This document shows positions 15,686-61,338 of a stretch of 64,000 nucleotides of DNA, piece by piece (the first letter of the stretch is position 1; every line of letters begins with the position of its first letter). Made by a program: the position numbers and the translations under genes. Origin of the DNA: an uncultured Sutterella sp. (lineage in GTDB: Bacteria; Pseudomonadota; Gammaproteobacteria; Burkholderiales; Burkholderiaceae_F); assembly GCA_949287305.1 (NCBI GenBank), contig CASEFX010000022.1, positions 1-64,000 on the forward strand, in the 5' to 3' direction. The notes below the pieces were generated by a model. The model was not told the DNA's origin and made no database searches. It was given only the letters and a program-made list of their open reading frames with translations.

Positions 15686-18600
15686 TTACCGCATAAAACG
15701 GTCAAGCCAGCGCGCGGGAATCGGCGTTTCCAGTTCCCACACGATCGACATCGGGCACTCGCCCGTATCCGAAACGTGGGCAAGACGTCCGAGGTAGACG
15801 AAGGGCTGCGTGGCGCCCTTTTCGTTCTTCTTTTCGCGCACGAACAAATGCGCCTGCGGCGCGTCTTCGTTTCGGAAGTCGACCGCCCTGTAGCGGCGTC
15901 CCTTGTCGCTCTCCGAGCGGGTCGTCGACTGCGTCTGCCAATGGAAGCGAGTCGCGTTCATGGCGTAGTCGTCGTAGCGGCGCGAAAGCGCAAAGTGGCG
16001 TTCCTCCTTGTCGATCGTGACGAAAAAGAGGTCCGCGTGCCGGTCCTTCAGATACATGACGCCCTCGCGGAAATTGGCGGCCTGTTCGTAGCCGAAGGCG
16101 GCGAGCGCTTCGCGCGCCGAATAGGACGCGTGCAGTTCCAGCGGCACGTCGTTAGGCACCGATGCGGGCGGACTCAAAAAGTCGACGTCCGCGAGAAGCG
16201 CTTCGAGAAGTCCCGTCACAGCCCTTCGCCACCCTGAATTTTCGAGAAGCGAATCGTGGAAGGCCTTCGCGGCCGGGAGATTGCCGCCGAACTTTCGAAC
16301 CTCCGCTTCGATCCAGGTGAAGGTGAAGAGCACCCAGTTGGCTTTCTGTCGCTTTGAGAAACTTTCAAAGGGCGTTCCCTCCCGCAGGTCACGGAGAAGC
16401 TCCGTAATCGATCGGAATCCGTTCTTGCGGCAAACGCGCAGAAACGCCTTCTGCGAAAGTCGGAAGGCTTGCGGAACCTCCACACCGGCTCCGTGGCCGG
16501 CGTCGAGCTTTGCAAGGACTTCTTCGAAGAAAAGATCGTCCCTGCCCTTCTCGATTCCGGACACCCAAAGCGGCCAGTCTCTGACACGCAGGTTCTGCGA
16601 GCGCAGAAAGTCCGCGAACTTCGGTTCGCCTTGTTGATGAGCAAGCCACTCGCCCGCCACTTCGAGTTCGCGTCCCTTGAGCCGGCGGTGCGCCTTGATG
16701 TTCGCAAGAACGTCCTCCATGGCCTGCTTTTCGAGGGTCAGCGTGCAGCCGAGCGGCAAGAGGGTCGAGTCAGTTCCCTCCACGAGATCCACGACGTTCG
16801 CCGTCGCCGCCCGCGTGAGGGCGCGAAGGCGAGCCTCAAACGAGAATTCCTTTCTGGCCGTGCCCACGAAGTCGAGCACCGTGAGACGCACTTTGTCCGC
16901 GCACTTTCGCAAGCCGCGCCCCAACTGCTGCAGGAAGACCGTCACCGACTCGGTCGGGCGCAGAAAGAGAACCGTGTTCACTTCGGGGATGTCGACGCCC
17001 TCGTTGTAGACGTCGACCGTACAGAGAAAACGAAGTTCGCCGCTCACGAGCCTTCTCGGCGCATTCCGGCGTTCTTCGGCGGGGGTTTCCCCGTCGATCG
17101 CGGCCGAGGGAATGCCGGCTTCGCACAGCACCTTCGCGACGTGCGCCGCGTGCCTGCGTCCCGCGCAAAAGACGATCCCGCGAACGTCGGAGAGGTCCGG
17201 GAGATAACGCTTCACGGCCGAGAGCACCGCGCGGTCGCGATCCCTCGCCGAACCGCCTTCGGTGTAGAGGTCTTCGAGTTCGGACGCGGCGTAGCTTCCG
17301 CGCGTCCACTTGAGGCCGGCGAGCGACACCGGGTCCGTCACCATCAGATAGTCAAACGGCACGAGAAGCTGCCGATCGATCGCGTCGCCGAGACCCAGTT
17401 CCGCCGTGATGCGGCCGCCGAAGCGCTCGAGCACGTCCCGTCCGTCTCCGCGCCAGGGCGTAGCGGTGAGACCGAGGAGGACCTTCGGGTCAAGCGTGTC
17501 GAGAAGCGCGCGGTAGCTCTGTGCCGCCGCATGGTGGAATTCGTCGACAACCACGTATTCAAAATGGTCGGGCGGATAGAAATGCGCGAGGTCTCGGCTT
17601 GCGGCCGTCTGCACCGAGAGGAAGACGTGGCGGTGCTCCTTCGGGGTTTCACGCCCCGTAAAGAGTTCGCCGAAATTCATGTCGTTCAAGACGTACCGGA
17701 AGGCGTTTCTCGCCTGAAGGAGGATTTCCTCGCGGTGCGCGACGAAAAGGAGATTCTCGCGTCTTCCGAGTTTCCTCGCCCTTTCCCGATAGTCGAAGGC
17801 CGCGATCATCGTCTTTCCCGTTCCCGTCGCCGCGACGACAAGCGATCGAGTTTCTCCGTGCAGGGTTCTCGCGGCGTCGAGCCGCTCGAGAATGGCCTTC
17901 TGGAAGGGATAGGGTTCGAGCTCGATCCCGAAGGTCGACAAGGGCGTGGCGGACGAAAGGGACGCACCCGATTCGCCGCGTCTCGCCTCTTGGATGGCTT
18001 CGCGCAGTTGCGCTTCGTCCCGCACGGGATCGAACCGCTTGAAGCGCTCCGCGTCCGTCACGTAGGCGTCGAAAATCGTCTTCATGCGCTCGAGAAGCGC
18101 CGCGTCGGACGCTTCCGTCACCTTGACGGTCCACTCGAGACCGTAGCTCAGCGCCGCCTTCGAAAGGTTGGCGCTTCCCGCGTAGGCGGTCGAGAGGCCG
18201 TGGGTGCGATGGAAAAGATAGGACTTTGCGTGGTGGCGCGTCGCGCCCGTGTCGTAGGCCACGAAGATTTCGGCGTTGGGAAGGCTTGAAAGCCAGAGCA
18301 CCGCTTCCGGATCGGTCGCGCCGACGTAGGTGGTCGTGACGACGCGCAGCCGTCCGCCCCGCTCGGCGAAGCGCTCGAGCACCGGCATCATGGGACGAAG
18401 CCCCGACATCTTTACGAAGGAAACCAGCCAGTCGACGCTTTCGGCCGTTTCGGTTTCGCGCCGCAGTTCATCGAGGAGCGCGGGCTCCCCGCGGGCGCCC
18501 GTAAGGAGCGTCGTTTGCGAAAAGGACGTCTCAGGCCGCACCGCGTCCGCCCAACGGGGCTCGCCCGGAACGGGATTCAGGCGGTCGGCGGCGAGAAGCA

Positions 18601-18898
18601 CCGAGAGAGGATCCGCAAAGAGCGAATCTCCCGACGGGGTGCGGTCGATTTCTCCGAGCACCCGCTCGACGATGGCCCGGGCCTTTGCGACGCTTTCCCC
18701 GTCCTCTTCCTTTTCGAGGGCTTCTCCGATCGCCCTGCGAAGGGCCGTCGCCGCATGGCGGTACAAAAGCGCAAAAAGCAGATCCCGATCTTCGTCCGCG
18801 GCCTGCGTCGTGAGTGCCCGGTCGGCGAGCGCCGACTGCAGCCCCCGCGTCAAAAGGCATTCAAAAAGTCCTACACGGTCCTTTTCGCACTCCCGCAT
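15686..18898 (-). CDS. PLD-nuclease/SF2-helicase fusion with DUF3427-type C-terminus
   Basis: A 1070-residue protein. The N-terminal third contains a phospholipase-D-type nuclease site (H223 and K225 in RHHAKSYLF, then YAGSANLS). It is followed by an SF2 DEAD/DEAH helicase with Walker A AATGTGKT (K362), DEFH box (D452), TATPWRGDG and the C-terminal helicase motif QQLGRGLRK. The last ~400 residues match the conserved C-terminal region of this family (DUF3427-like). Related proteins occur in restriction and defence settings, but a role in CRISPR function is not established. I start at the ATG preceded by GAGGAAG rather than an earlier in-frame one. A partial second copy of its 3' end lies at 9696-9800. 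Confidence 0.85.
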
Positions 18899-19173
18899 GC
18901 TCTTCCTCTTTCCATGAAACAACGTTGCAGCGTAACCGGAGGCGGAACCGGGCGTCAACGATCGGAGCCGTCGGGCGAGATCCGGAAAAACCAGGAGGGA
19001 CGAACGGCGGCGCCGAACCGCAGCGGTCACAACCGGTCACCTTTTTCACGGGATCAGCCTTTCGGACGAGCCCGAAATGTGCAACAATGCGGAACCCGTT
19101 TCGGACGCGGGCGCTCTTGCGTCCCGTCCGCCATCCGTTTTCACCGGCCTCGGGCCGGTTTCTGGAGAAACAC

Positions 19174-28070: not shown

Positions 28071-28430
28071 ATGAAGAAACTCCTCCTTCTCGCCCCCCTC
28101 GCCATCCTTCTCGCGGGTTGCGGCTCGATTCCCCAAGGCGCCGACCGCATCAACATGATCACGGCCGAAGAAGCCAAGGCGAACGGCTGCAAGCTCCTCG
28201 ACAAGGCGGGCTCGGTTTCCGGCATCCTCATCAACGGCTACAAACGCAATACGCAGGTTGCCGTACGCAAGGCCCTCAAGGTTCCGGGCGCCACGCACGT
28301 GGGCTACACGAAGGGAAAGCCCGGCGCCTCGAACGTGCGCATGTTCATTTGGTCCTGTCCGAATCCCGATCTGAAGACCAACGACCCCAAAGTCGCCGCC
28401 TGGCAGAAGGAATATCTCGGTCACGACTAA
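28071..28430 (+). CDS. Small lipoprotein, DUF4156-like
   Basis: A 119-residue lipoprotein. The signal peptide MKKLLLLAPLAILLAGCG ends in an LAGC lipobox. The mature part has the pattern of DUF4156 proteins: ADRINMITAEEAKANGCKLLDKAGSVSG followed by a second half with one more Cys (FIWSCPNPD) that could pair with the first. Function is unknown; outer-membrane anchoring is plausible. No strong Shine-Dalgarno is visible. A hairpin (GCCGTCC at 28448-28454 with GGACGGC at 28462-28468, then GTCGGTTTTG) ends the transcript. Confidence 0.78.
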   Translation: MKKLLLLAPLAILLAGCGSIPQGADRINMITAEEAKANGCKLLDKAGSVSGILINGYKRNTQVAVRKALKVPGATHVGYTKGKPGASNVRMFIWSCPNPDLKTNDPKVAAWQKEYLGHD

Positions 28431-28447
28431 ACGTCCCGCCGCCCGCG

Positions 28448-28479
28448 GCCGTCCTCTGAAGGGACGGCCCGTCGGTTTT
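28448..28479 (+). terminator. Terminator of the DUF4156-like gene
   Basis: A 7-bp stem GCCGTCC/GGACGGC followed by CCGTCGGTTTT. Confidence 0.6.
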
Positions 28480-28525
28480 GTCGGGCAATTCCTTCGAGCG
28501 GTGATGCTTTTTGGAAAAAACAGTC

Positions 28526-28690
28526 TTGACATCCTCACCGCCCTGAAGGACGGTGATTCCCTACTGTGCCGTTGTCGGCAGAGCCGCCAACGGTCGCTTC
28601 GACGGGTTCCTGTTGCTGGACGACGCTTCTCTTACGGGAAGGTCGACTCACTTGAGCTGCGTTCACAGGAACGAGCTCCCCACAGGCTCT
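28526..28690 (-). ncRNA. Predicted omegaRNA at the tnpB 3' end
   Basis: In IS605-family elements the TnpB guide RNA overlaps the end of tnpB and the right end, and its guide is the first ~16-20 nt outside the element. Here the scaffold would end at TCAA (28526) with guide starting GACTGTTTTTTCC on the minus strand. The hairpin CACCGCCCTGAAGGACGGTG is in the expected place. The 5' limit is a guess. Confidence 0.5.
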
Positions 28691-29830
28691 GAGGCGCTGC
28701 CCGCGCCCGAGAATGTTCACCGCAGCAACGGCGTCCGCATTGCCTTCGTACCCGCAGGACGTGCATCGAAACTTCGCCTGCGTCCTGCGGTTCTCTTTCG
28801 ACACGCATCCGCAGACCGGGCACGTCCGGCTGGTGTTCTGCGGAGGTACCGCGAACACCAGACCGCCGAGTTCGGTCATCTTGGCGTTGAGGAAGGAAAA
28901 GAACATCCCCCAACCCTGATCCAGAATCGCACGGTTGAGGCCCCTCTTCTGCTTCACGTTCTTGCCGGGTTCCTCCACGGTACCCTTGGCCGACGCGGTC
29001 ATGTTCCTGATCTTCAGATCCTCGCGATAGAGCACTGCGTGGTTTTGGCAGAGCCTGTTCGCGGCTTTCCGAAGCAGATCGCGACGACTGTCGGCCACTT
29101 TCTTGTGGAGACGGGCAATGCGCTGCTGCTGCTTGATCCAATTCTTGGAAAACTTGACCATCCGCTTGAGACGACGCTGTTCCTTGGCGAGCTTCTCCAA
29201 CTTGTCCCGAAGACAACGGACGCCCTCTTTGAAGGTTCCGTCGGAGCACGTGTAGAGACGCACGACGCCCATGTCGATGCCGGCCTCGGTTCCCGCTTTC
29301 GGGTGAACCGGATCGGGCACTTCCCGCTCCGTCTGCACGGATACGTACCAGCCGTCCACCTTGCGGCTGACGGTGACGTTCTTGGGTATTCCTTCGATGA
29401 AGCGGCTTCTTCGGTATTTCACCCAACCGATGCTCGGCAAAAAGATCTGCCGACGGGCTTCATCCACCTTGAAGCCCTGTGGATAGCGGATGGAATCTTC
29501 GTTGCGGAACTTCTTGTGAAACTTTGGGAAGTCCGTGCGCCCTTCGAAGAAGTTCGTGAAGGCACGCATCAGATCCTTGAGACTCTGCTGCAGAACCTGA
29601 CTGTGGCACTCGGAAAGCCACTTCGTTTCCTCGGCGGACTTCCACTCCGGAAGCTGTTCGCAAAGCTTCGCATACGAGATTTTGAAGTTCGGATCCGACG
29701 AACGCTGATCACGATTCCAAGCCAAAGCCTTGTTGTAGACGAAACGCGCACAGCCGCAGAACCGGGAGAGTTTGCGGCCGGTGGCCCCGTCGGGCTTGAG
29801 CTTGAATTGATAGGCTTTTCGTAGGATCAT
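28535..29830 (-). CDS. tnpB: TnpB RNA-guided nuclease
   Basis: A 431-residue TnpB with a complete RuvC site: D186 (AGIDMGVVRLY), E270 (VLYREDLKI) and D366 (GNADAVAAVNI). The zinc finger is intact (C337, C340, C356, C359). The N-terminal helix-turn-helix region reads YQFKLKPDGATGRKL. TnpB cuts DNA next to a TAM using the omegaRNA and helps retain the element. The stop codon lies inside the right-end hairpin, as is common. The start ATG is 29 bp from the divergent tnpA start. Confidence 0.93.
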   Translation of the reverse strand: MILRKAYQFKLKPDGATGRKLSRFCGCARFVYNKALAWNRDQRSSDPNFKISYAKLCEQLPEWKSAEETKWLSECHSQVLQQSLKDLMRAFTNFFEGRTDFPKFHKKFRNEDSIRYPQGFKVDEARRQIFLPSIGWVKYRRSRFIEGIPKNVTVSRKVDGWYVSVQTEREVPDPVHPKAGTEAGIDMGVVRLYTCSDGTFKEGVRCLRDKLEKLAKEQRRLKRMVKFSKNWIKQQQRIARLHKKVADSRRDLLRKAANRLCQNHAVLYREDLKIRNMTASAKGTVEEPGKNVKQKRGLNRAILDQGWGMFFSFLNAKMTELGGLVFAVPPQNTSRTCPVCGCVSKENRRTQAKFRCTSCGYEGNADAVAAVNILGRGQRLRACGELVPVNAAQVSRPSRKRSVVQQQEPVEATVGGSADNGTVGNHRPSGR

Positions 29831-29859
29831 ATGGGTATTGTAGCACTTGGTCTTATGAA

Positions 29860-30270
29860 ATGACAGAGAGTATTCGAACTGGAAGACACTGCGTATTCGA
29901 GATGTATGTGCATTTGGTCTTCGTGACGAAATATCGAAAGGCAATCTTTAAAGCGCAACACCTGAAGGCGATGCAGGAAGTGGCCGCAAAGGTGTGCCTC
30001 GATTTCGGTGCGGAGCTTCGGGAGTTGGACGGAGAACGGGATCACGTTCATCTGTTGGTGAGTTATCCGCCGAAGGTTGCGGTCTCGTCGCTTGTGAACA
30101 GTCTCAAGGGCGTGACGAGTCGAATGCTGAGAAAACAGTTTCCGGATTTGGAAGCGGCATACTACAAGGGACAACTCTGGTCACCCTCCTACTTTGCCGC
30201 GAGTTGCGGGGGAGCCCCCTTGGAGAAGATCAAGGAATACGTTCGGCAACAGGACACGCCGTCTAAGTGA
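29860..30270 (+). CDS. tnpA: IS200/IS605 Y1 transposase TnpA
   Basis: A 136-residue HUH single-strand transposase. The metal-binding HUH pair is H62 and H64 (RDHVHLLV) and the catalytic tyrosine is Y127 (IKEYVRQQ), the same position as in IS608 TnpA. The N-terminal GRHCVFEMYVHLVFVTKYR motif is standard. The length is only slightly below the usual ~140-155, and no key residue is missing. Confidence 0.93.
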   Translation: MTESIRTGRHCVFEMYVHLVFVTKYRKAIFKAQHLKAMQEVAAKVCLDFGAELRELDGERDHVHLLVSYPPKVAVSSLVNSLKGVTSRMLRKQFPDLEAAYYKGQLWSPSYFAASCGGAPLEKIKEYVRQQDTPSK

Positions 30271-30366
30271 AGGGAACGGGGCGCCTTATATCCCCGCCCT
30301 GAAGAGACGGGGCTTTACGGCGTATTGGGTAAAGCTGTCGGCAGGACCGCACATCAGGAGCCGACC

Positions 30367-31620
30367 ATGTAGCGCCGAACGTTCTTCACCGCTTCCGCCG
30401 CCCTCGCCCTCTCGACGGGCATCCCCGCCCTCGCCTCGCCGGATTCCGCCCCGGAGATCCTCCTTCCGAAATCCTCTTTCGATCTTCGCGTCTTTACGGC
30501 CGAAGTGGCCGAATTGGTCGCCATCGACTCCTAGACCGGATACGAAGAAGGCAACAACCGCATCGTCAAAATCTTTGCCGAGCGCTTCCGCTCGATCGGC
30601 TGGTCGGTGGAAACGCCCTACTGCGCCGAGCGCGGCAAGGCCCTGCTCGCAACGAACCGCCCCGACGCGAAACGCTTCGACATCGTGTTTTGCGCGCACA
30701 CCGACACGGTCCAGCCCGTGGGAAGCGCGGCCAAGCATCCGTTCCGTCTCGTCGACGGCATCGCCTACGGCGCAGGCGTCGCGGACGACAAGCGCTCGCT
30801 CAACGCCGTATGGTGGGTCGCCAAAGATCTGCCCGCCCGCGTCACCGACCGCCTCGCCGTCGCGGTCGTTCTTAATCCCGGAGAGGAATCGGGGTCGAAA
30901 GCGACTTCGGCCTTCCTCCGCGGCGTCGCGCAAAAGGCCGACCGCGTGATGGTCTTCGAGCCCGGACGAGGCGAAGTTCCGGGCGGCGGTTTCGTCAAGG
31001 TCCGCAAGGGGGCGATCTTCCTCAAGGTCCGCTTTCACGGCAAGGCCGCCCACGCCGGCAACAACCCGCAGGACGGACGCAACGCCATCACGGCGATGGC
31101 GCTCGCGATCCCCGAGATTCAGAACGTCGCCAAGAAGTACCCGGGCGTCACCATCAACGGCGACCTCGTCTCGGGCGGCACGGCCGTCAACACGATCGCG
31201 GCCGAGGCCGAAGTGACCTTCGACCTTCGCTTTGCCGACAACGCTTCGCGCGACGCGGTGCTCGCCGACACCGAAGCGCTTTGCCGTCAAGGATTCCTCG
31301 AAGGCGTCCGTGCCGAAATGGTTCCGCCCGGCGCATCAAGCGCCATGGCCGAGACCGAAGCTTCGCGCGCCCTCATGGCTCTGGTCGACGGTGCGGCCGC
31401 GAGCCTCGGTCAATCCGCTCCGAAATGGCTGACGGTCGGCGGCGCGTCGGACAGCAATCTCTTTGCCGAGTACGTCGCGGGCGTCGTCTGCGCCATGGGC
31501 GTCGTGGGAAGCAAACTGCACGATCCGGAAAAGGAATGGTCCGACCTACGCACGGCACGCGACCGCGTCCTTCTTGCGCAGGTGACCCTCCTGCGGATGG
31601 CGGCGCAACGCCGCAACTGA
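30367..31620 (+). pseudogene. M20 peptidase (CPG2-like) with two in-frame amber codons
   Basis: An otherwise intact 417-codon gene for an exported M20 metallopeptidase of the glutamate-carboxypeptidase type. AGGAG precedes the ATG, but codon 2 is TAG (30370-30372) and codon 56 is TAG (30532-30534). Replacing each with Gln gives MQRRTFFTASAALALS, a proper Tat signal, and AIDSQTGYEEGN. Zinc-site motifs are all present: FCAHTDTVQP, GVADDKRS, NPGEESGS and GGASDSNLF. There is no frameshift. Most likely it is a recent pseudogene (two CAG to TAG changes, plus an IS insertion 38 bp upstream); amber readthrough is the alternative. A start at 30607 would lose the export signal. Confidence 0.8.
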
Positions 31621-42885: not shown

Positions 42886-43482
42886 TTTGATTCTCCGAAA
42901 GAAGGTTTTGGATGGCGCCGTCGGTTGCATCCATATCGACGCAACCGACGCGCCGCTTCTTTCGATCGGGACCTCCGCGTCTTTGCGAAAGGCGTCCCGA
43001 GACGGTTTGTTGAGCGAAACGCGCCGACTGGATCGATAGCTCCTCCGAAGGTTTGGGACGGGCGCTTCTGCGCTCCAACCCTTGCCGACGGGAGTCGCAG
43101 ACGTCTTTCGCCTGCGCCCAACTCGTCGAATCCGCCGATTCGACCGTTTCGGCGGTTTTGCCTTTCGCGAATCCTCTCGGGCTGCCGCCTCCGATTCGCT
43201 ACTCATCGCAACCGCGCCTCTATCAACCTAAGGCCCCTTCACTATCACGCAAAAATTGCGGGAAGACGCGGCCTTCGCGCGGCTTTTTTCAGAAACATGC
43301 GCTTTTCTTGACGGAAATGCGGTGAACTATGCCGAAGTACCTACAGACAATCTTCTATTCGCCAGCACTCCCGACCCGCGCCCCACGGAAAACGGGACGC
43401 TCGAAAGCGTCCCGCTCCTTCTTCTGGAAGCCGTCCTCCCGCAACGGACCGGTTGCGCGGAGGACGGAGGCGTCATGCGCAA
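42886..43482. other. Non-coding stretch upstream of the permease
   Basis: About 600 bp without a convincing gene. A terminator hairpin at 43393-43414 (GGGACGCT and AGCGTCCC, then GTTTTC on the minus strand) belongs to the truncated flavoprotein gene. The rest should contain the permease promoter. Confidence 0.6.
43393..43414 (-). terminator. Terminator of the truncated flavoprotein gene
   Basis: A 9-bp stem CGGGACGCT/AGCGTCCCG with a GAAA-type loop; TTTT follows on the minus strand. Confidence 0.65.
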
Positions 43483-43783
43483 TCAGCGCTTCGCCACTTC
43501 CATGCCGGCGATGCGGCCGTTGACGATGCAGTCGGTCGTGGCGTTCGAGCCGAGACGCACCGCCCCGTGCACGCCGCCCGTGGCCTCCCCGGCGGCGTAG
43601 AGCCTCGGAATCACCTTGCCGTCGACGTTGACGACTTCCGCCCTGGGCGTCGTGTAGAGACCGCCCATCGTGTGGTGCACCTTGGGCGAGAGGCGCGAGA
43701 CGTACCACGGCCCTTCGGTGTGCGGCTTCATTTTCGGGTCGACCACGGGACGCCACGGATCCTTGCCGGTTTCGATCGAGCGG
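43483..43783 (-). pseudogene. C-terminal fragment of a fumarate-reductase-like flavoprotein
   Basis: Only the last ~100 codons survive. The sequence includes HHTMGGLYTTPRAEVVNVDG, RLYAAGEATGGVHGAVRLG and ATTDCIVNGRIAGMEVAKR, the FAD-binding C-terminus of periplasmic fumarate/urocanate-reductase-type flavoproteins. The reading frame continues upstream to SIETGKDPW and then breaks into a LysR fragment at about 43780. Confidence 0.85.
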
Positions 43784-43870
43784 TTGCGACATGTGCAGTT
43801 GTTCGGCCGCCCGCGTGATGTTGCCGGTGCGGCTCACGACGAGAAAGGCCTTCAGATCGCGAAAGTTCAT
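43781..43870 (-). pseudogene. N-terminal fragment of a LysR regulator
   Basis: The first 30 codons of a LysR gene (MNFRDLKAFLVVSRTGNITR, then AAEQLHMSQP) join directly to the flavoprotein fragment, out of frame by one base. The shared CCGC at the junction indicates a deletion between short identical sequences. Confidence 0.85.
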
Positions 43871-43924
43871 GGTTCCAACTCGAAAAATACCCGTGGAAGG
43901 AATCCGAAGACTCCTTCTCTATTT

Positions 43925-45925
43925 TCAGGCATTCTGCGCTTCGTCGTCGGAGGCGCTCCAAAATTCCCGCAGACGGTCCGACAGGCCTCCTTCGCGAAGC
44001 GTCGGGGTTGACGCCGCCCGCAGAAAGACTTCTTTTCGTCCGAAGATCACGGCTCCGCGCTTGGCGCGCGTGATCCCCGTGTAGAGAAGTTCGCGCGTCG
44101 CAAGACCCGATTCGGCGTCTTCGGGAAGAATGATCGCGACCTCGTCGAATTCCGAACCCTGCGACTGATGAATCGTCATGGCGTAGGCCGCGTCAAAGCG
44201 CGGGAGAAGCCCCGGCGCAAAGGCGCACTCCTTCACCGTGGGCCCCTTGTCGCCGAACCATACGATCGTCTGCGCGGGATTCTCCGGATCGGGGAGGCAC
44301 ACGCCCACGTCCCCGTTGAAGAGCCCGATCGTGTCGTCGTTCGTGCGCACGATGAGGACGAACCCCGGGAACCAGTCGCCCTCGCGCCCGAGTTCGGACG
44401 AAACCGCCTCGGCCGCCCATTCGTTGAGCGCCGTCACGCCCGCGCGGCCCGCGCGCTGCGCGGAAAGAAGTCGGAAGCGCGCGAGCGCGCGCCAGACCGC
44501 GTCGGCGTGCGAGCGATAGTCGTCTTCTCCGTCAAAAGAGCCTTTCTCGACCATCCTTTGCACCGAACGAACAAAAGGCTTGAGCTGACGGCGCATCCAT
44601 CCGCGAAGCGCCGAGCTGATTTCACCCCCTCGCCCGATCGCGGGCGCACAACGCACGTACTCCGCGCCGCTTTCCTTCGTCGCCTTGCCTTCCTCCCAGG
44701 CTTCTTCAAGCGCTTCCTCGGAAGCGTCGGGGTCGTTCACGAGCCTTGCGAGCCGTCCCACGGGCGAAGCCGCCCCGTAGCGGCGGGAGACCGTCAGAAA
44801 CGCCCGGCAAAAACGAAGCGCTCCCGCTTCGTCGGCGAGGTCCGCATAAACCGCCCCCGGGCCCACGGCGGCGAGCTGATAGGGGTCGCCCAGAACGATC
44901 ACGCGGGTTCTCTCCGGATCGACTGCGGCGAAGAGCTGCGAAGCGAGTCCCACGTCGATCATCGAGGCTTCGTCGACGACGAGGACGTCCGTTTCCATCG
45001 GAGCCGACGCGCTCGGTCGCGAAGCGCCCGAGACGGGCATCGTGAGCCACTTGTGAATCGTGTGCTCGCGAATGCGGGTTTTGAGGTCCGAAGAACGGAT
45101 CGCGGCCCCCGCCTCGCCCGCCCTTTCGTCAAAAAGCCGTGCGTAGCGGGCGATCCCGTCCGAAACCGACTGCATCATGCGGCTCGTCGCCTTCCCCGTG
45201 GGGGCGGCGAGCGATACGCGAAGCATCGGATTTTCGAGAAACAGCAGGAGAAGCATCTTCACGACGCTCGTCGTCTTCCCCGTTCCCGGCCCCCCGCAGA
45301 CGACCGTGAAGCGCCGCGTCACGGCGGAAAGCACCGCCGCGCGCTGATCGGCTTCGCTTTGTTTGGCTTCCGAGAGGCGCAGGGCGCGAAGCTCTGGCGC
45401 GAGTTCCGGCGCGAGCGTCGACTCGACCCAGGCGCGGTCGGCCGCGGCCATGGCGTCGAGCAACGCCGTCTGCGACCCAGTGGCGGCGACGGCGGGCATG
45501 GAGGCAAGGCGGCAGAAGCGCTGCGCAAGCGTGAGTTCCTCAAGGAAGAAGCGCTGCGGATAGAGTCGTCCGCCTTCGTCGTACACGAAGGGAACGGAGG
45601 CGCTCTCGTCAAGAATGAGCGTGCGGCGGGGGTCGTCGGTCAACGACGCACGCGAAAAGACGTCGCCCGAGACGGCGAGACGGAGCTTTTCAAACTGCGC
45701 GCAGGTCTCCTTCGGCACGGCGATGCAGAGGCTTCCCGCCTCGATCGCACCCGCGAGGAGGCGCATCGTTTCCGTTACGAGCGTCCGATCGTCCTCATTC
45801 ACGGCTACCCCCGAACGCTCCACGGCGCGAAGGAGCAACTCCCCCATCACCACGTAGGGCGTCTCGGCCGCGGTCGTTTCGTTCGCGAAGACCGTTTTTT
45901 CTTCGTTTTCCATCTTTTGCGTCAT
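43925..45925 (-). CDS. recD: RecBCD subunit RecD
   Basis: A 666-residue 5'-to-3' SF1 helicase of the recombination nuclease. Walker A is GGPGTGKTT (K217), Walker B DVLVVDEASMIDVGL, and the C-terminal motifs YAMTIHQSQGSEFDE and LLYTGITRAKRG are present. The start ATG lies one base after the recB stop, so the genes are coupled. Length is close to E. coli RecD (608), with some extra loop sequence. Confidence 0.92.
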   Translation of the reverse strand: MTQKMENEEKTVFANETTAAETPYVVMGELLLRAVERSGVAVNEDDRTLVTETMRLLAGAIEAGSLCIAVPKETCAQFEKLRLAVSGDVFSRASLTDDPRRTLILDESASVPFVYDEGGRLYPQRFFLEELTLAQRFCRLASMPAVAATGSQTALLDAMAAADRAWVESTLAPELAPELRALRLSEAKQSEADQRAAVLSAVTRRFTVVCGGPGTGKTTSVVKMLLLLFLENPMLRVSLAAPTGKATSRMMQSVSDGIARYARLFDERAGEAGAAIRSSDLKTRIREHTIHKWLTMPVSGASRPSASAPMETDVLVVDEASMIDVGLASQLFAAVDPERTRVIVLGDPYQLAAVGPGAVYADLADEAGALRFCRAFLTVSRRYGAASPVGRLARLVNDPDASEEALEEAWEEGKATKESGAEYVRCAPAIGRGGEISSALRGWMRRQLKPFVRSVQRMVEKGSFDGEDDYRSHADAVWRALARFRLLSAQRAGRAGVTALNEWAAEAVSSELGREGDWFPGFVLIVRTNDDTIGLFNGDVGVCLPDPENPAQTIVWFGDKGPTVKECAFAPGLLPRFDAAYAMTIHQSQGSEFDEVAIILPEDAESGLATRELLYTGITRAKRGAVIFGRKEVFLRAASTPTLREGGLSDRLREFWSASDDEAQNA

Positions 45926-45926
45926 C

Positions 45927-48900
45927 TCAGTCACCCAACATCTCCTCAAGGATCTTCACGCGGTCGGCCACGTCTTCGTAAGGCAACACTGCCACGCCGC
46001 GTCCCGCAGAGGCGCCGCGCACGAAGAAGTAAAGGGCGCCGCCGAGGCGGTCCTCGGCTCCTTCTCCCAGACGGGCGCGCAGAAGGCGCTTCGCCGCGGC
46101 GAGGTAGCAGAGGTACTGAATGTCGTAATGGGCCTCCTTCATGTGAAGCGCCACGGCGTCTTCCGCATAGAAGTCCCGCCAGTCCTTGGCTTCCGGGAAG
46201 GCCTCGCGAAGAGCCGCGTTCGAGGCGAGGTTGTCGGTCTTCCAGTCGAGAATCCAGATCTTGCCGTTCGCTTCAAAGAGAAGGTCGATCGAACCCGTGA
46301 GGTAGCCCGAGAGCTCTTCCTGCGTGAGCCCCTTCCAACCGAGTTCCGCGGCCTTCTTCGCAAAGGCGGTCTTCGAGAGATTCGGCTTCGTGTGGAGAAG
46401 AAAACCGTATTCCGAGCGGCGGCATTCGGCCTTCAGATTCTTGAGGCAAAAGTCCGGAAGAATCGGAAGCGAGAGGACCGAGTCAAAGAGCGTCCGAAGC
46501 TCTTCAAGGCGCTTTGCGCCTTCGGGCGAGAGACGATCCTCGCCCGGCGCCTCGTCCGAAAGACCTTCCCCGCGGCGCACGAGATCGGGCGTGGCGCCGA
46601 GGATCGACAGAAGATAATTGCGCTGCCGCAGGCGGTTGCGGCGGATTTCGTCCGAGAGTCCGGGATCGGCGAGTTCCTCGTCGGTCGCGAGCACGCGCCG
46701 GCATTCGAACCCGTGGAAGTCCACGACTTCGAAAAGCCGGTGGATCGTCACACCCAATGCGGCGCCCGAACGCCAGCGCGCCATGGGCGAGGCGTCCTCG
46801 ATTCGGCGGCGCAGTTCTTGGGATTCGTCGTCCTCGGTTTCATCCTCCCCGGAGAGCGTCGCGCGCTCGTCGCGGTGAGCATCGGCGTGCGCGCCGAAAA
46901 GGCCCTTTTTCAGTGCCGTGTAGCTCGTCTGCACCCAAGAGGGATCGACCCTGCGCACGGACTCGGGTTCGGGAAGGGCCTGCGCTTCCGGAGATTCGAG
47001 CATCACCGGCACACCGTCCTCCCGGGGCGCCCAAGGCGAGATCGACCAGTAGAGTCCCGTCTCGTCCTTTTGCGGTTTGAGCGTTTCAGAGTCGACCGTC
47101 ATCCCGGGGTGTTCCTCCGCAAAGCGCCCGGCCGTTTTCGCCCAGACGTCCGCAAAATCGTCCGCACGCTCGAGCATTCCCTTTTGAAATTCGTCCCAGA
47201 CGGCGAGATAGTCGTCCCGAGTCCAGCCCGCGAGATTTTCCCGCGCGGCGAGCGCATAAAAGAAGGCCGACCAGGCGTAGGAATTGAGTTCACCCCCGAC
47301 CTTCCACTTCGGAAGACCGTAGATCGTCAGGCGTGCGGAGGCGCGGGTGAAAGCGACGTAAAGAAGCCGCACCGACTCCTCGATCTGGGCGCGCTTGAAG
47401 TCGGGGAGGTCATTGGGCTTCACTTCGCCCGGGAAAAGAACGAGCCGTCGTTCGCCCGCCCCGTCGCGTTCGTGGACCATGGGAACCGCCATGTCTTTGT
47501 AGGGCGCTCCCCACCAACAGCCCGGCAGATAGACGATCGGGTACTCGAGCCCCTTGCTCGAATGAATCGTTTGAATCACGACGCGGTCGTCGTTCGAATC
47601 GGGCCGGACTTTGTATTCGTCGGGTACGGAAGCCTTCTTGTCCGATCCTTTGGCGATCAGCTTTTCAAAGCGCCGCACGAGCCCCGAGAGGGTCTTGGCG
47701 GACTGCTGCATCCCGAAGAGGAGTTCGATCAACTGCCGATAGTTGGCGAGCGCCCGCTCGCCGCCCGCCACGGGCAGAAGACGGCGTTCCACTTCGCAGA
47801 CGCGGAAAAGCTCTCCGAAGGCCGCGGTGAGGCCCGAGCGCCGTGCGCGTTCGGCCGCCGCCTCCATCACGCCGCGCAGGAAAACGAGACGTTCGGTGCG
47901 CTTTTTCTCGTCGGTGTAGGTCGAGAGTCCGTCCCCCACGATGCGCGTTGCGCGGGCGGCCTCGAGGAAACCGCGCTCGGAAGGCATCGCCATCGCCTCG
48001 AGGACCGTGCAGAGTTCCTTGGCCTCCTCGGTCCCGAAGACGTTTTTGTCGGAGGGAAAGCGCACCTTCACGCCCCGCGCCAGAAGGGCGTCGTAAAGCG
48101 GCATCCCGTCGTCGCGGGTCCGCACGAGAATCGCGATGTCGCCAGGGCGCAGGGGACGGCCTTTGACGAAGTGACGGTCGCGCTCCGAGAGCATCGCGGC
48201 GATTTCGTCGGCGATGTCGTCCGCCTCCCACTGAAAGAGCTTGTCCTTGACGGGTTTTTCGAAGTCCCCGAGGCGCACGACGAGCGCGGGTTCGGGTCGG
48301 AAGACCCCGTTTTCATCGACGCGGATGAGGGGCGGCCGATCTTCGTTTGCGGCCACGGCATCGTAACGAATGCCCGACCCGAGGAAGGTCCCCGGACGCT
48401 CGAAGAAAAGATTGAAGAAGTGCATCAGGACCGGCGTCGTCCGGAAGTTCTTCGCGAGCTTTCGGTGACGTCCGATTTCGTCCGACGCCTTCCGATAGGT
48501 CTCGAAGTCCGCGTTTCGGAAGCTGTAGATCGCCTGCTTCGGGTCGCCCACGAAAAAGACGGTCTTCCCGTAGGCGGGGTCCCCGAAGAGCGTGGAGAAG
48601 ATCCCGTACTGCAGGGGGTCCGTGTCCTGGAATTCGTCGATCAAGACGACGTCATAGTGACTGCGCACGACGGCCGCAAACGCCGGATCCGCCTTGAGCC
48701 CCGCTTCGGCGCGAACGAGCATGTCGTCAAACGTCTGGTACGACGCTTCGCGCTTCAGGGCCTCGTAGCGCGCGGGCGCCCAGGTGAGGAAACGCGAGAG
48801 CATTTCCTCGTAGGCCGCGGCGTTCTCGGCGTCAAGATTCTTGGGGAAGCCCTCCTCGGAAAAGACGGCGCGGCTTCGGGCCGATTCGGGCTCGGCGGCG

Positions 48901-49754
48901 AGTTTCGAGAGAGCCTTGTCGAGCTTCAGGGTTCGCAGCGCCCGGAAGGCTGCGGTGGCGCCGCTCTCGTTTGCACGTCTCGCTTCAAGACGCAGAAACT
49001 CCTCCGCAGTGCGGTCGAGAAGGTCGTTTTCCTCCCCCGAGTCGACGCCGTAGCTTCCGCCCGAGGTGAAAACAAAGTCCGAGAGCGTCTTCTGACAGAA
49101 CGAATGGATCGTGAGGATCACGGCGTCGTCGAATTCGCGCACCGCGCGGTCGAGCCGCTCGCGAACGAGATCGGGATCAAGTTCGAGTTTCTTCCAACGT
49201 TCGAACTGCTCGAAAAGATTCTTGTCGGTGGGCGGAACGCCTTCGGTCACGAGCTTGCGTACGGCGATGAGCTTGCCGCGGATGCGGCTCTTGAGTTCCG
49301 CCGTCGCCGCCTTCGTAAAGGTGACGACGAGCATGCGCCCGATCGCGATCCCGCGCTCGACGACGAGACGAAGAACGATGTGTTCGAGCGAATAGGTCTT
49401 TCCCGTCCCCGCGCTCGCCTCAATCAGGGTCCGACCGCGAAGAGGATCGTCGAGGAGCTTGAAGTCCCCGTTCGGATCGTCGTCCGTCTGCGGGTCCGCC
49501 GCGCCGGACTGCGCGGGCTCTACGGCCGCCGGGGGGAAATCCTCCGCGACGGGCGCAAGGTCGTCCGCAACCGACGCCTCGAAAAAGGCGTCGGGCTCGA
49601 ATTCGCCCCCGACGGGCAGCGCCCAGTCGTCGGGAAGATCCGAAGGCATGTCTTCGGGCGGCACTTCGATCCAATCTTCGTTCCCGCCGGCCTCCAAAGA
49701 GGGAAAATCCGCGGGCACTTCATCCGGCCAAACCTGCAAATCCTTTTCCTTCAC
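45927..49754 (-). CDS. recB: RecBCD subunit RecB
   Basis: A 1275-residue helicase-nuclease. Walker A is EASAGTGKTYS with K119, DEFQDTDPLQY is Walker B, and the nuclease domain near the C-terminus contains D1170-W-K1172 with GSIDLLFEANGKIW before it. The helicase starts about 90 residues later than in E. coli RecB (K29) because of an acidic N-terminal extension (PDEVPADFPSLEAGG and similar). The GTG start with GAGGAG upstream is chosen over a TTG nine codons earlier. It begins 10 bp after recC. Confidence 0.93.
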   Translation of the reverse strand: MKEKDLQVWPDEVPADFPSLEAGGNEDWIEVPPEDMPSDLPDDWALPVGGEFEPDAFFEASVADDLAPVAEDFPPAAVEPAQSGAADPQTDDDPNGDFKLLDDPLRGRTLIEASAGTGKTYSLEHIVLRLVVERGIAIGRMLVVTFTKAATAELKSRIRGKLIAVRKLVTEGVPPTDKNLFEQFERWKKLELDPDLVRERLDRAVREFDDAVILTIHSFCQKTLSDFVFTSGGSYGVDSGEENDLLDRTAEEFLRLEARRANESGATAAFRALRTLKLDKALSKLAAEPESARSRAVFSEEGFPKNLDAENAAAYEEMLSRFLTWAPARYEALKREASYQTFDDMLVRAEAGLKADPAFAAVVRSHYDVVLIDEFQDTDPLQYGIFSTLFGDPAYGKTVFFVGDPKQAIYSFRNADFETYRKASDEIGRHRKLAKNFRTTPVLMHFFNLFFERPGTFLGSGIRYDAVAANEDRPPLIRVDENGVFRPEPALVVRLGDFEKPVKDKLFQWEADDIADEIAAMLSERDRHFVKGRPLRPGDIAILVRTRDDGMPLYDALLARGVKVRFPSDKNVFGTEEAKELCTVLEAMAMPSERGFLEAARATRIVGDGLSTYTDEKKRTERLVFLRGVMEAAAERARRSGLTAAFGELFRVCEVERRLLPVAGGERALANYRQLIELLFGMQQSAKTLSGLVRRFEKLIAKGSDKKASVPDEYKVRPDSNDDRVVIQTIHSSKGLEYPIVYLPGCWWGAPYKDMAVPMVHERDGAGERRLVLFPGEVKPNDLPDFKRAQIEESVRLLYVAFTRASARLTIYGLPKWKVGGELNSYAWSAFFYALAARENLAGWTRDDYLAVWDEFQKGMLERADDFADVWAKTAGRFAEEHPGMTVDSETLKPQKDETGLYWSISPWAPREDGVPVMLESPEAQALPEPESVRRVDPSWVQTSYTALKKGLFGAHADAHRDERATLSGEDETEDDESQELRRRIEDASPMARWRSGAALGVTIHRLFEVVDFHGFECRRVLATDEELADPGLSDEIRRNRLRQRNYLLSILGATPDLVRRGEGLSDEAPGEDRLSPEGAKRLEELRTLFDSVLSLPILPDFCLKNLKAECRRSEYGFLLHTKPNLSKTAFAKKAAELGWKGLTQEELSGYLTGSIDLLFEANGKIWILDWKTDNLASNAALREAFPEAKDWRDFYAEDAVALHMKEAHYDIQYLCYLAAAKRLLRARLGEGAEDRLGGALYFFVRGASAGRGVAVLPYEDVADRVKILEEMLGD

Positions 49755-49764
49755 GGGACTCTCC

Positions 49765-52700
49765 TCAATAGTTGCGCGCAACGAGCGCTTCCACGCTTTC
49801 GGCGAGAGAGGTCAATGCCTTCTCCCGCTTTTCCTCGGGCGTGCACTCGGGTTCCTTCTTTTTCGAAGTCTTCTTCTTTGTGCTTTTGCCCTTCTTGGGC
49901 TTGTCCGAAGCCTCCGCCGCTTCCGTCGATTCGGACGTCTCGTCGGAAGACGTTGCGGTCACCTCCGCCAGAGGCGCGAGGAGCGCTGCAATGTCCTCCT
50001 CCACCCGTTCGCGAAGATCACGGGCCTTTTTAATGTCGAGCCCCCGCCAGAAAACGCTGTCCTCATAGGAATCGGGCCAGATGACGGGCAGATCGAAACT
50101 CTCGTCGAAGAGTCGAACGCACTGCCGCAGAATTTCCTCGGCTTCGTCGACCTCCATCGGCCGGTAACGCACGAACACCACGCCGTCGTCCTTTGTCTTC
50201 TTCAGAACGCCGAGCGCCGTTTCGGCCCCCGCCTCCGAGAGGAAGACGTGCGTGAGCAGGGCTTCCTTTTCCGCACGGTTTGAGTCGGCGAGCACGAGCT
50301 GCGCGGACGTTCCGTCCGCTTCCGAGAAGACTCTGACCTCGCCCGTCAGACGGCGCACATGACGTCCCGCAACGTTCACAGCGAGGGAGAGTTTGGACGG
50401 CGTTCGACCTTCGGTAAGCTTCCTCCACTCTTGAGAGAGTTCGTCGGCCTCGGCAATTTCCTCGGCAAACCACCAGCCGCGCACGCCCGGGTCGCCGTTG
50501 ACGGGATTTTCCGCAAGAAGCCGCGTCGCGCGCGCGACGTCCGCGCCCTCTTCGAAGAGCCCCCGCAGGAGACGCTTTCGCATCACTTCCTCGAGGCGCG
50601 ACTTGGCGGGGGTCACGCCCGTTTCTTCGGAGGTCTCGAAATCCTTTTTGTAGACGCCCGTGCGTCCCGAGAGCCACTTGCCCGGAGACGTCCAAAAGCG
50701 CAGGAATTCCTGCCAGCGAACCGTCCCGTCTTCGGGCGGCGCAAGCACCGCACCGTCGGCAAAGGGCTCGGCCTTTCCCCGTCGGTCCGTGGTGCGGGCG
50801 GCCTTCACGGCCTCAAAGAGTTCCGGATCGCGGTTCGTCCAGAAGCGAAGTCCCTCGGGACGGAAGTTTTCTTCTGCGACGCTCGTGAGCGGAAGCCGCA
50901 CGCGAAGGGCGTCCGAAGGCGTCCCTTCGGGAAGGAGCGTCAGCAAAAAGCGCTCGAGCTCCTCCACGACGACCGAAGGAAGCGCAGGCTGCGCCGGATC
51001 CGTTCCGATCGACCAGGAGACGTAGAAGTTCGAACGGGCCGAACGAAAGAGGTCCGCAAAGACGTTGCGGTTGTCCGCGCGGCTGTCGCGATCGCCCGGG
51101 CGCCGAAGCGACCGGATTTCGCCCTCTTTCCCGGACGCGGTGAGCGCCATGAGGTCGAACTCCTCGAAGTTCGAAAGCCCCGGAAAACTCGAGTCTTCCG
51201 AAAGCCCCAGGCAGGCGACGACGCGGTACGGCAATCCCCGGAAGGCCGACATGTCGGCGACCGTCACGGCGTCCCTCGGCATCGCGCCCGACACGGGGTC
51301 GCCGAAGGAGGCGCCGAGCGCCGCACGGAAGGTCTGGTAGTCGACGGGCGTTTCCGTGCCGATCCCCTCCTCCATGTCGATGCGAAGGTGCGCAATGACG
51401 CCGAGAAGCTCGTCGCGCGCCGCCTTGACGTCGGCGCCCGCAAAAAAGTCGGTGACGAGCGTTTCGGTGAAGGCCGCCCAGTCCCGTGCGCCGGGCTCGG
51501 CGTCGTTCACGTCGTTCCAGGCGATGCGGGCGTCTTCGAGGCGCTTGTAAAGCGAAAGAAGGGTTTCGAGCAGATCGGGGCGCTCCGACACCCTTTCGTA
51601 GTGCGCGCGCGAACGGCGCACCGGAAGCGTTCCCGCCCAGTCGACCGCGGGGCTCTCGTCAAACAAAAAGCCCGCCGACAGGCGCTCCAGGGCCCGCGAG
51701 AGCGTGCCGTCCACGGCGCCGCGCCGCTCGGCTTCGCCGTAGGCGCCGCCGAACGAGGCGCTAAGTTTTTCGCTCTGCGCCGCAAGCTGCGCTTCGGAGA
51801 GCCCCTCGCGAAAGCCCGCGTCGTTCACCCACTCGCGAAGAACGGAGAGGTCGCCGAAACTGAGACCGAGGCTTTCCCCGACCACGGGGAGTTCAAGCCA
51901 GGATTCAAAGGCGGAGAGCGTCGTGAGCCCCGAAAGGAGGTCCATTAGCTGCAGAAGAGCCGACGCTGCGCTGTTTTCCATCGAGAGGGGCTTACCCACC
52001 ATGCGGAAGGGAAGACGCCGTTCGGGCGGCAGGGCCGTTAGCACGCCTTCAAGGACCGGCGCGAAGGTCGCGACGTCGGGCGTCGTGACAAGGACGTCGG
52101 AGGGTTTGAGCGTCTCGTCCCGGGCAAAAAGGTCCGTCAGATAGTCGACGAGGCTCTCCGCCTCGCGCACGGGCGTGGGCGCTTCGACAAAGCGCACGGA
52201 ACGGTCCGACTCATCGGGCAGGGACCGCTCGAAAAGATCGGCCTCGTCGGCCGAGAGCAGCGAATCCTGCGCACGGGTGAGTAGCGTCGGTGCTCCGTCG
52301 TTCGTAAGACGCAGATAGAAGCTGTCGCTTTCCCCCTCTTCGTCGGCGCGCAGGTCCTGCAAGCGGTTGCGTAAAAACGAGAAGGGGCGCTCGGCCGGGG
52401 CGTTCGCCACTTCGCCGCGGGCGTCGGGCATCGCCTCCGCCGGCGGCGGCACGTCCGCCGTGAAGCGCCAGAGACGATCGAGCGTCGCGCGCGAACTCGC
52501 CGCGTTGCGGCGCAGGTATTCGAGCGCTGGCGTCGCCCCCTCGGCCGCCGAATCGAACCAGAAGCCGTTTGCGGGCTGCATGAGGTAGAGCCGCACCGTG
52601 CCGCGCCGACCGATTTCCTTCAGGAAGGGAAGCATCAGGGGCGGGACCGTGAAGGGAAGAAAGACGTGGAGGTTTTCTCCCGAGGGGGAATCCGCGAGCA

Positions 52701-60996: not shown

Positions 60997-61338
60997 ATGC
61001 CGATTCTTCTCACCGAAACGCCCGGAAAGGGCGACGAAGTCGTCTTCACGCTTCGGGCGCCCAAGGAAGAGGCTGCGGCGCTTCGCCGCATCCTCACGGG
61101 GCTCGAATCGCTCTCCCACGTGGGAAAGCCCCTCCCGAAGCGCGAGGGCGAGCCTTTCGAGCGCCTTCGGCAATACCGGCTCCTTCGCAATCTCACGCAG
61201 AAGGACGTCGCCGACGCCGTGGGGACCACGCAGTCCCATCTCTCGAAATACGAGGCGGGTCTCCGGAAGATCCCGACCGAAACGGCGGAACGTCTCGCAC
61301 ACTTCTTTCAGTGCGACGTCACGGAATTTCTCGAATAG
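60997..61338 (+). CDS. XRE-family HTH protein
   Basis: A 113-residue protein. Residues ~55-110 are a lambda-repressor-like HTH (LLRNLTQKDVADAVGTTQSHLSKYEAG). The N-terminal ~50 residues are not recognised. It ends with TAG, the only annotated gene in the window that does. It starts 13 bp after the dehydrogenase gene and ends 3 bp from the convergent MFS gene. Confidence 0.8.
   Translation: MPILLTETPGKGDEVVFTLRAPKEEAAALRRILTGLESLSHVGKPLPKREGEPFERLRQYRLLRNLTQKDVADAVGTTQSHLSKYEAGLRKIPTETAERLAHFFQCDVTEFLE

Follow-up and report, generated by a model that had tools for sequence, protein, structure and literature searches.

The M20 peptidase locus

The window, i.e. the whole stretch of 64,000 nucleotides analysed here from an uncultured Sutterella sp. 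(contig CASEFX010000022.1), carries the gene of an M20 peptidase with two in-frame TAG codons, located behind an insertion element of the IS200/IS605 family (Table 1). Reading of the frame placed the start codon ATG at 30367-30369, directly followed by TAG as codon 2, with a second TAG as codon 56. The frame ends with TGA at 31618-31620, this TGA being preceded by 417 codons, and besides the two TAGs neither a stop nor a frameshift was found between ATG 30367 and TGA 31620. Both the ATG-TAG behind AGGAG (30356-30372) and the second TAG at codon 56 (30532-30534) are located as described in the original prediction.

Table 1. Features of the M20 peptidase locus and the adjoining insertion element (positions in the window).
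Feature	Position	Strand	Basis
IS200/IS605-family element	28526..30328		Aligned with another copy in this genome (1807 nt, 88.6% identity); end positions
tnpB, RNA-guided nuclease-type gene	28535..29830	-	NF040570, 1.4e-94, searched as 28535-29821; inner ATG start counted by hand
tnpA, Y1_Tnp transposase	29860..30270	+	PF01797, 4.5e-42
Likely ribosome-binding site AGGAG	30356..30360	+	Sequence; 6 nt ahead of ATG
Pseudogene (very probable), twin-arginine-type exported M20 peptidase (carboxypeptidase G2-like), ATG to TGA	30367..31620	+	Ortholog without stops, 92% identity across 361 residues
Codon 2 TAG	30370..30372	+	Nearest ortholog CAA (Gln); other residues in 5 others
Codon 56 TAG	30532..30534	+	Lys in 6/6 orthologs
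337-codon open stretch from GTG beyond second TAG; remnant, not taken as gene	30607..31620	+	Frame reading

The peptidase stretch corresponds to the portion after codon 56. Its predicted membership of the M20 family was confirmed by two matches above the respective cut-offs, to Peptidase_M20 (PF01546; 62.3 bits, 7.6e-17) and to the dimerisation domain M20_dimer (PF07687; 73.6 bits, 1.4e-20). The nearest relatives of solved structure, as judged by sequence, are the carboxypeptidase G2 entries 7m6u, a circular permutation (5.4e-24), and 1cg2 (6.3e-24), while the best NCBIfam match is the glutamate carboxypeptidase PRK06133 (E 3e-52). The latter scored 178 bits, below the cut-off of 349 bits, which leaves the assignment of a substrate tentative. 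The sequence match to this kind of enzyme (1cg2, PRK06133) sets in at the first metal-binding motif and continues almost to the C terminus, and the orthologs begin with a twin-arginine start; apart from the low PRK06133 score, the window copy differs by its two stops. The motifs that we take to hold the five metal-binding residues are all retained. Elsewhere in the same genome, 12 more M20-like matches were found.

The upstream IS200/IS605 element

An insertion element just upstream of the gene had been predicted, and its Y1 transposase, TnpB and defined ends identify it as a member of the IS200/IS605 family. The two genes are arranged in the divergent order of such elements and nothing unusual was seen. 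The tnpA-side end lies 38 bp ahead of the M20 start codon, and TTAC on the minus strand (30332-30329) adjoins this end just outside the element, as it does in both copies compared. Two other Y1 matches are present in the genome, one (C19) belonging to a copy that is 88.6% identical and the other (C13) giving no DNA alignment. Since the two alignable copies are only 88.6% identical, the window element is not a fresh duplicate of the second copy, and a recent local copy as evidence for a very fresh insertion is unsupported.

Between a small gene that ends at 28430 and the start of the M20 gene, the window contains a block that the nearest relative (genome G001) lacks, and the element is absent from the corresponding gap in that relative. 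A promoter consensus scan of 28400-30420 yielded a single promoter-like site, which is located on the minus strand; the plus strand gave none. The native promoter of the M20 gene was perhaps lost to the insertion. A link between the inactivation of the gene and the insertion is plausible.

Orthologs and the origin of the stop codons

A collection of 41 genomes, including the genome of the window itself and holding one genome per species, was searched, and an M20 match was found in 36 of them. Out of 17 loci, the six with 50 to 92% identity (L107-L112) were used as orthologs and the eleven with 37% or less were left out. The nearest ortholog, L107 of genome G001 (uncultured Sutterella sp., CASDQM010000025.1), shows 92% protein identity. 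It shares the downstream sequence and the small upstream gene with the window, but is free of stops and has no insertion element in the upstream gap. All six orthologs have a full-length open frame, the upstream ATG and a twin-arginine start, so that both TAGs of the window copy fall within a frame that is open in every one of them.

Both TAGs had been predicted to occupy Gln-like positions and to derive from CAG. For codon 56 this does not hold: the residue is Lys in all six orthologs (AAG in L107, L108, L111 and L112; AAA in L109 and L110), and Lys is also found at this place in a locus outside the six (L004 of genome G015, 52% identity, reversed in its locus). The second TAG therefore does not stand at a Gln position, an origin from CAG is ruled out, and the likeliest source would be the Lys codon AAG through one transversion. 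For codon 2 the prediction stands in part. Gln is present in the nearest ortholog only, where it is encoded by CAA and not by CAG, and the other five orthologs have other residues; for this codon an origin from CAG is thus possible, but no more than that. The expected CAG was found in the six orthologs at neither position.

Two stops in a frame where a 92% identical relative has none appear to be more than chance. That both of them are TAG is unremarkable and needs no special cause, because 43 of the 95 routes by which a single base change leads to a stop in the relative's M20 gene give TAG; if all routes were equal, a pair of stops would consist of two TAGs in about 20% of cases.

Decoding of TAG

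The alternative offered in the original prediction was that amber codons are read through, with a check of the genome for a tRNA with CUA anticodon. In the 2.6 Mb draft, 62 tRNA matches were obtained with the Rfam tRNA model, and ARAGORN read the same number of tRNA genes in stretches holding all Rfam matches. None of the 62 has a CUA anticodon; the single 'tag' anticodon in the ARAGORN list belongs to a tRNA-Leu reading CUA. The draft does miss a few tRNA genes: Ile-GAT and Ala-TGC, at least, are lacking from the set, probably along with rRNA operons. Release factor 1 is present (525.4 bits against a cut-off of 423.25). The best match to PylS reached 24.5 bits in this genome, far from the cut-off of 178.15; it is presumably another synthetase, and similarly weak matches occur in most control genomes.

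TAG does serve as a stop here, as shown by the HTH gene at 60997-61338, in which TAG takes the place of the TGA that ends the gene of the relative G001 at the same residue. Neither disuse of TAG as a stop nor loss of release factor 1, as would go with a changed code, was observed. For a wider comparison, 48 open frames of G001 were chosen by composition, 30 of which gave window matches with at least 60% identity (matches of lower identity were left out; the LysR match covers only 10% of its length). Among the 18 frames without a window match, 16 are from G001:C25:1-18000 and the other two belong to the stretch that follows. For 28 of the 30 matched proteins, no stop was present in the aligned stretch of the window. 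One further match, the helicase at 15686-19030, gave two TGA codons, both ahead of the start of the window gene, and the remaining one with stops is the M20 gene. Its comparison showed three stops, one of which lies in a separate aligned piece (28267-28470) outside the gene. The 29 matched genes other than M20 therefore gave no in-frame TAG where they were aligned. Among the titles returned by a literature search, none dealt with stop-codon pseudogenes in Sutterella, and nothing was found there on amber codons in Sutterellaceae.

Selection and timing of the probable loss

Comparison of the M20 gene of the window with that of G001 gave a pairwise dN/dS of 0.129 over the full length and of 0.108 beyond codon 56, with a dS of about 0.4. 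This lies within the range of the neighbouring genes, 0 to 0.211 (23 rows), from which five of 29 rows were left out: 5331, 18826, 32972 and 45858, which were regarded as wrong-frame shadows of listed genes, and 53900, a paralogue match. As the value resembles that of the neighbours, any death of the gene must have been late and most of the divergence arose under constraint.

Amino-acid differences between the two M20 copies were polarised by five outgroups. Excluding the stops, 20 were derived in the window copy and 5 in that of the relative (binomial p 0.004), with 7 ambiguous and 10 unpolarised; after codon 56 the counts were 15 and 5. The controls were more even: MutS gave 11 to 13 with five near outgroups and 12 to 11 with five others, and an amidohydrolase gave 12 to 9 and 9 to 7, respectively. 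Against the two controls pooled, Fisher's test gave p 0.022 for the whole M20 gene and 0.10 after codon 56, and comparison of nonsynonymous with synonymous changes, outgroup by outgroup, gave p 0.026 to 0.38. At outgroup-invariant sites the M20 gene showed 5 to 1, and MutS with the near outgroups likewise 5 to 1. A paralogue, for which the two genomes show just 4 differences, was useless as a control. The prediction of no other damage over 417 codons is right for stops and frameshifts, but five residues common to the five outgroups and the relative are altered in the window copy, now F108, H124, V151, S363 and V370. The window-side excess is a hint of relaxed constraint and would fit a recent death. 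As strong proof of relaxed selection it was rejected: with an ordinary dN/dS and modest p values it is only suggestive.

Interpretation

Production of the full-length peptidase with the aid of a suppressor tRNA or an altered code would agree with the frame being intact apart from the two TAGs, with a dN/dS that is not raised and with the retention of the expected metal-binding motifs. Against this stand the lack of a CUA anticodon among the 62 tRNAs (of a draft in which Ile-GAT and Ala-TGC are missing), the presence of release factor 1 with PylS under the cut-off, the TAG ending the conserved HTH gene where the relative has TGA, the Lys rather than Gln of the orthologs at codon 56, and the absence of other in-frame TAGs from the aligned stretches of the 29 further genes. 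Amber suppression was rejected on the tRNA set, the release factor, PylS and the use of TAG as an ordinary stop, and we consider it extremely unlikely. A weaker form, in which a tRNA missing from the draft, or near-cognate reading by a Gln or Lys tRNA, yields the full-length peptidase at a low level and leaves the gene dimmed and not dead, is hardly credible either. If true, read-through would be a case of amber suppression occurring naturally in a gut betaproteobacterium; the evidence, however, speaks against it.

An error of sequencing or assembly in a gene that is truly intact could be considered, as the genome is a draft of 39 contigs; two separate substitutions that both create stops, with no frameshift, would in our judgement be an unusual error pattern, and several conserved residues are changed as well, which makes this explanation very improbable. 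The same low likelihood is given to a shortened cytosolic peptidase made from a downstream start, e.g. GTG 30607. The 337 codons open from this GTG keep the expected metal-binding motifs, but the product would be without the signal and without the 24 residues following codon 56, no AGGAG-like site precedes the GTG, and all six orthologs start at the upstream ATG with a twin-arginine start.

The locus is therefore best explained, with high confidence, as a recent and ordinary pseudogene beside an IS200/IS605 insertion. The recent inactivation put forward originally is borne out by the intact ortholog, the nearly whole frame and the element in the upstream gap. The ancestral gene would have encoded an M20 metallopeptidase of the carboxypeptidase G2 kind, exported by the twin-arginine route. 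Codon 2 and the conserved Lys codon 56 both changed to TAG in this lineage, so that translation from the ATG is expected to end after one residue and any translation getting past it to stop at codon 56. The insertion 38 bp before the start codon has parted the gene from its former upstream region. Presumably no product is made, and the loss is probably tolerated, with the 12 further M20-like matches in the genome. Gene decay of this kind is common and ordinary. The value of the result lies mainly in annotation, where it averts a false claim of amber recoding for the genus Sutterella, and it provides one example of recent gene loss adjoining an IS200/IS605 insertion.

Two other observations were made in the window. 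At 43355-43873 on the minus strand a decayed locus is located, in which a LysR regulator is reduced to its first 31 codons or so (a 318-codon frame in G001) and adjoins a C-terminal flavoprotein fragment (FAD_binding_2, 1.5e-17). More than 20 places in G001 match the DNA of this fragment, which would fit many flavoprotein paralogues. At 45603-52000, DNA identity to the relative is 98%, against 86-89% in the two preceding stretches; a contig of the relative ends where the identity jumps, and the jump could reflect a recent exchange or an assembly matter.
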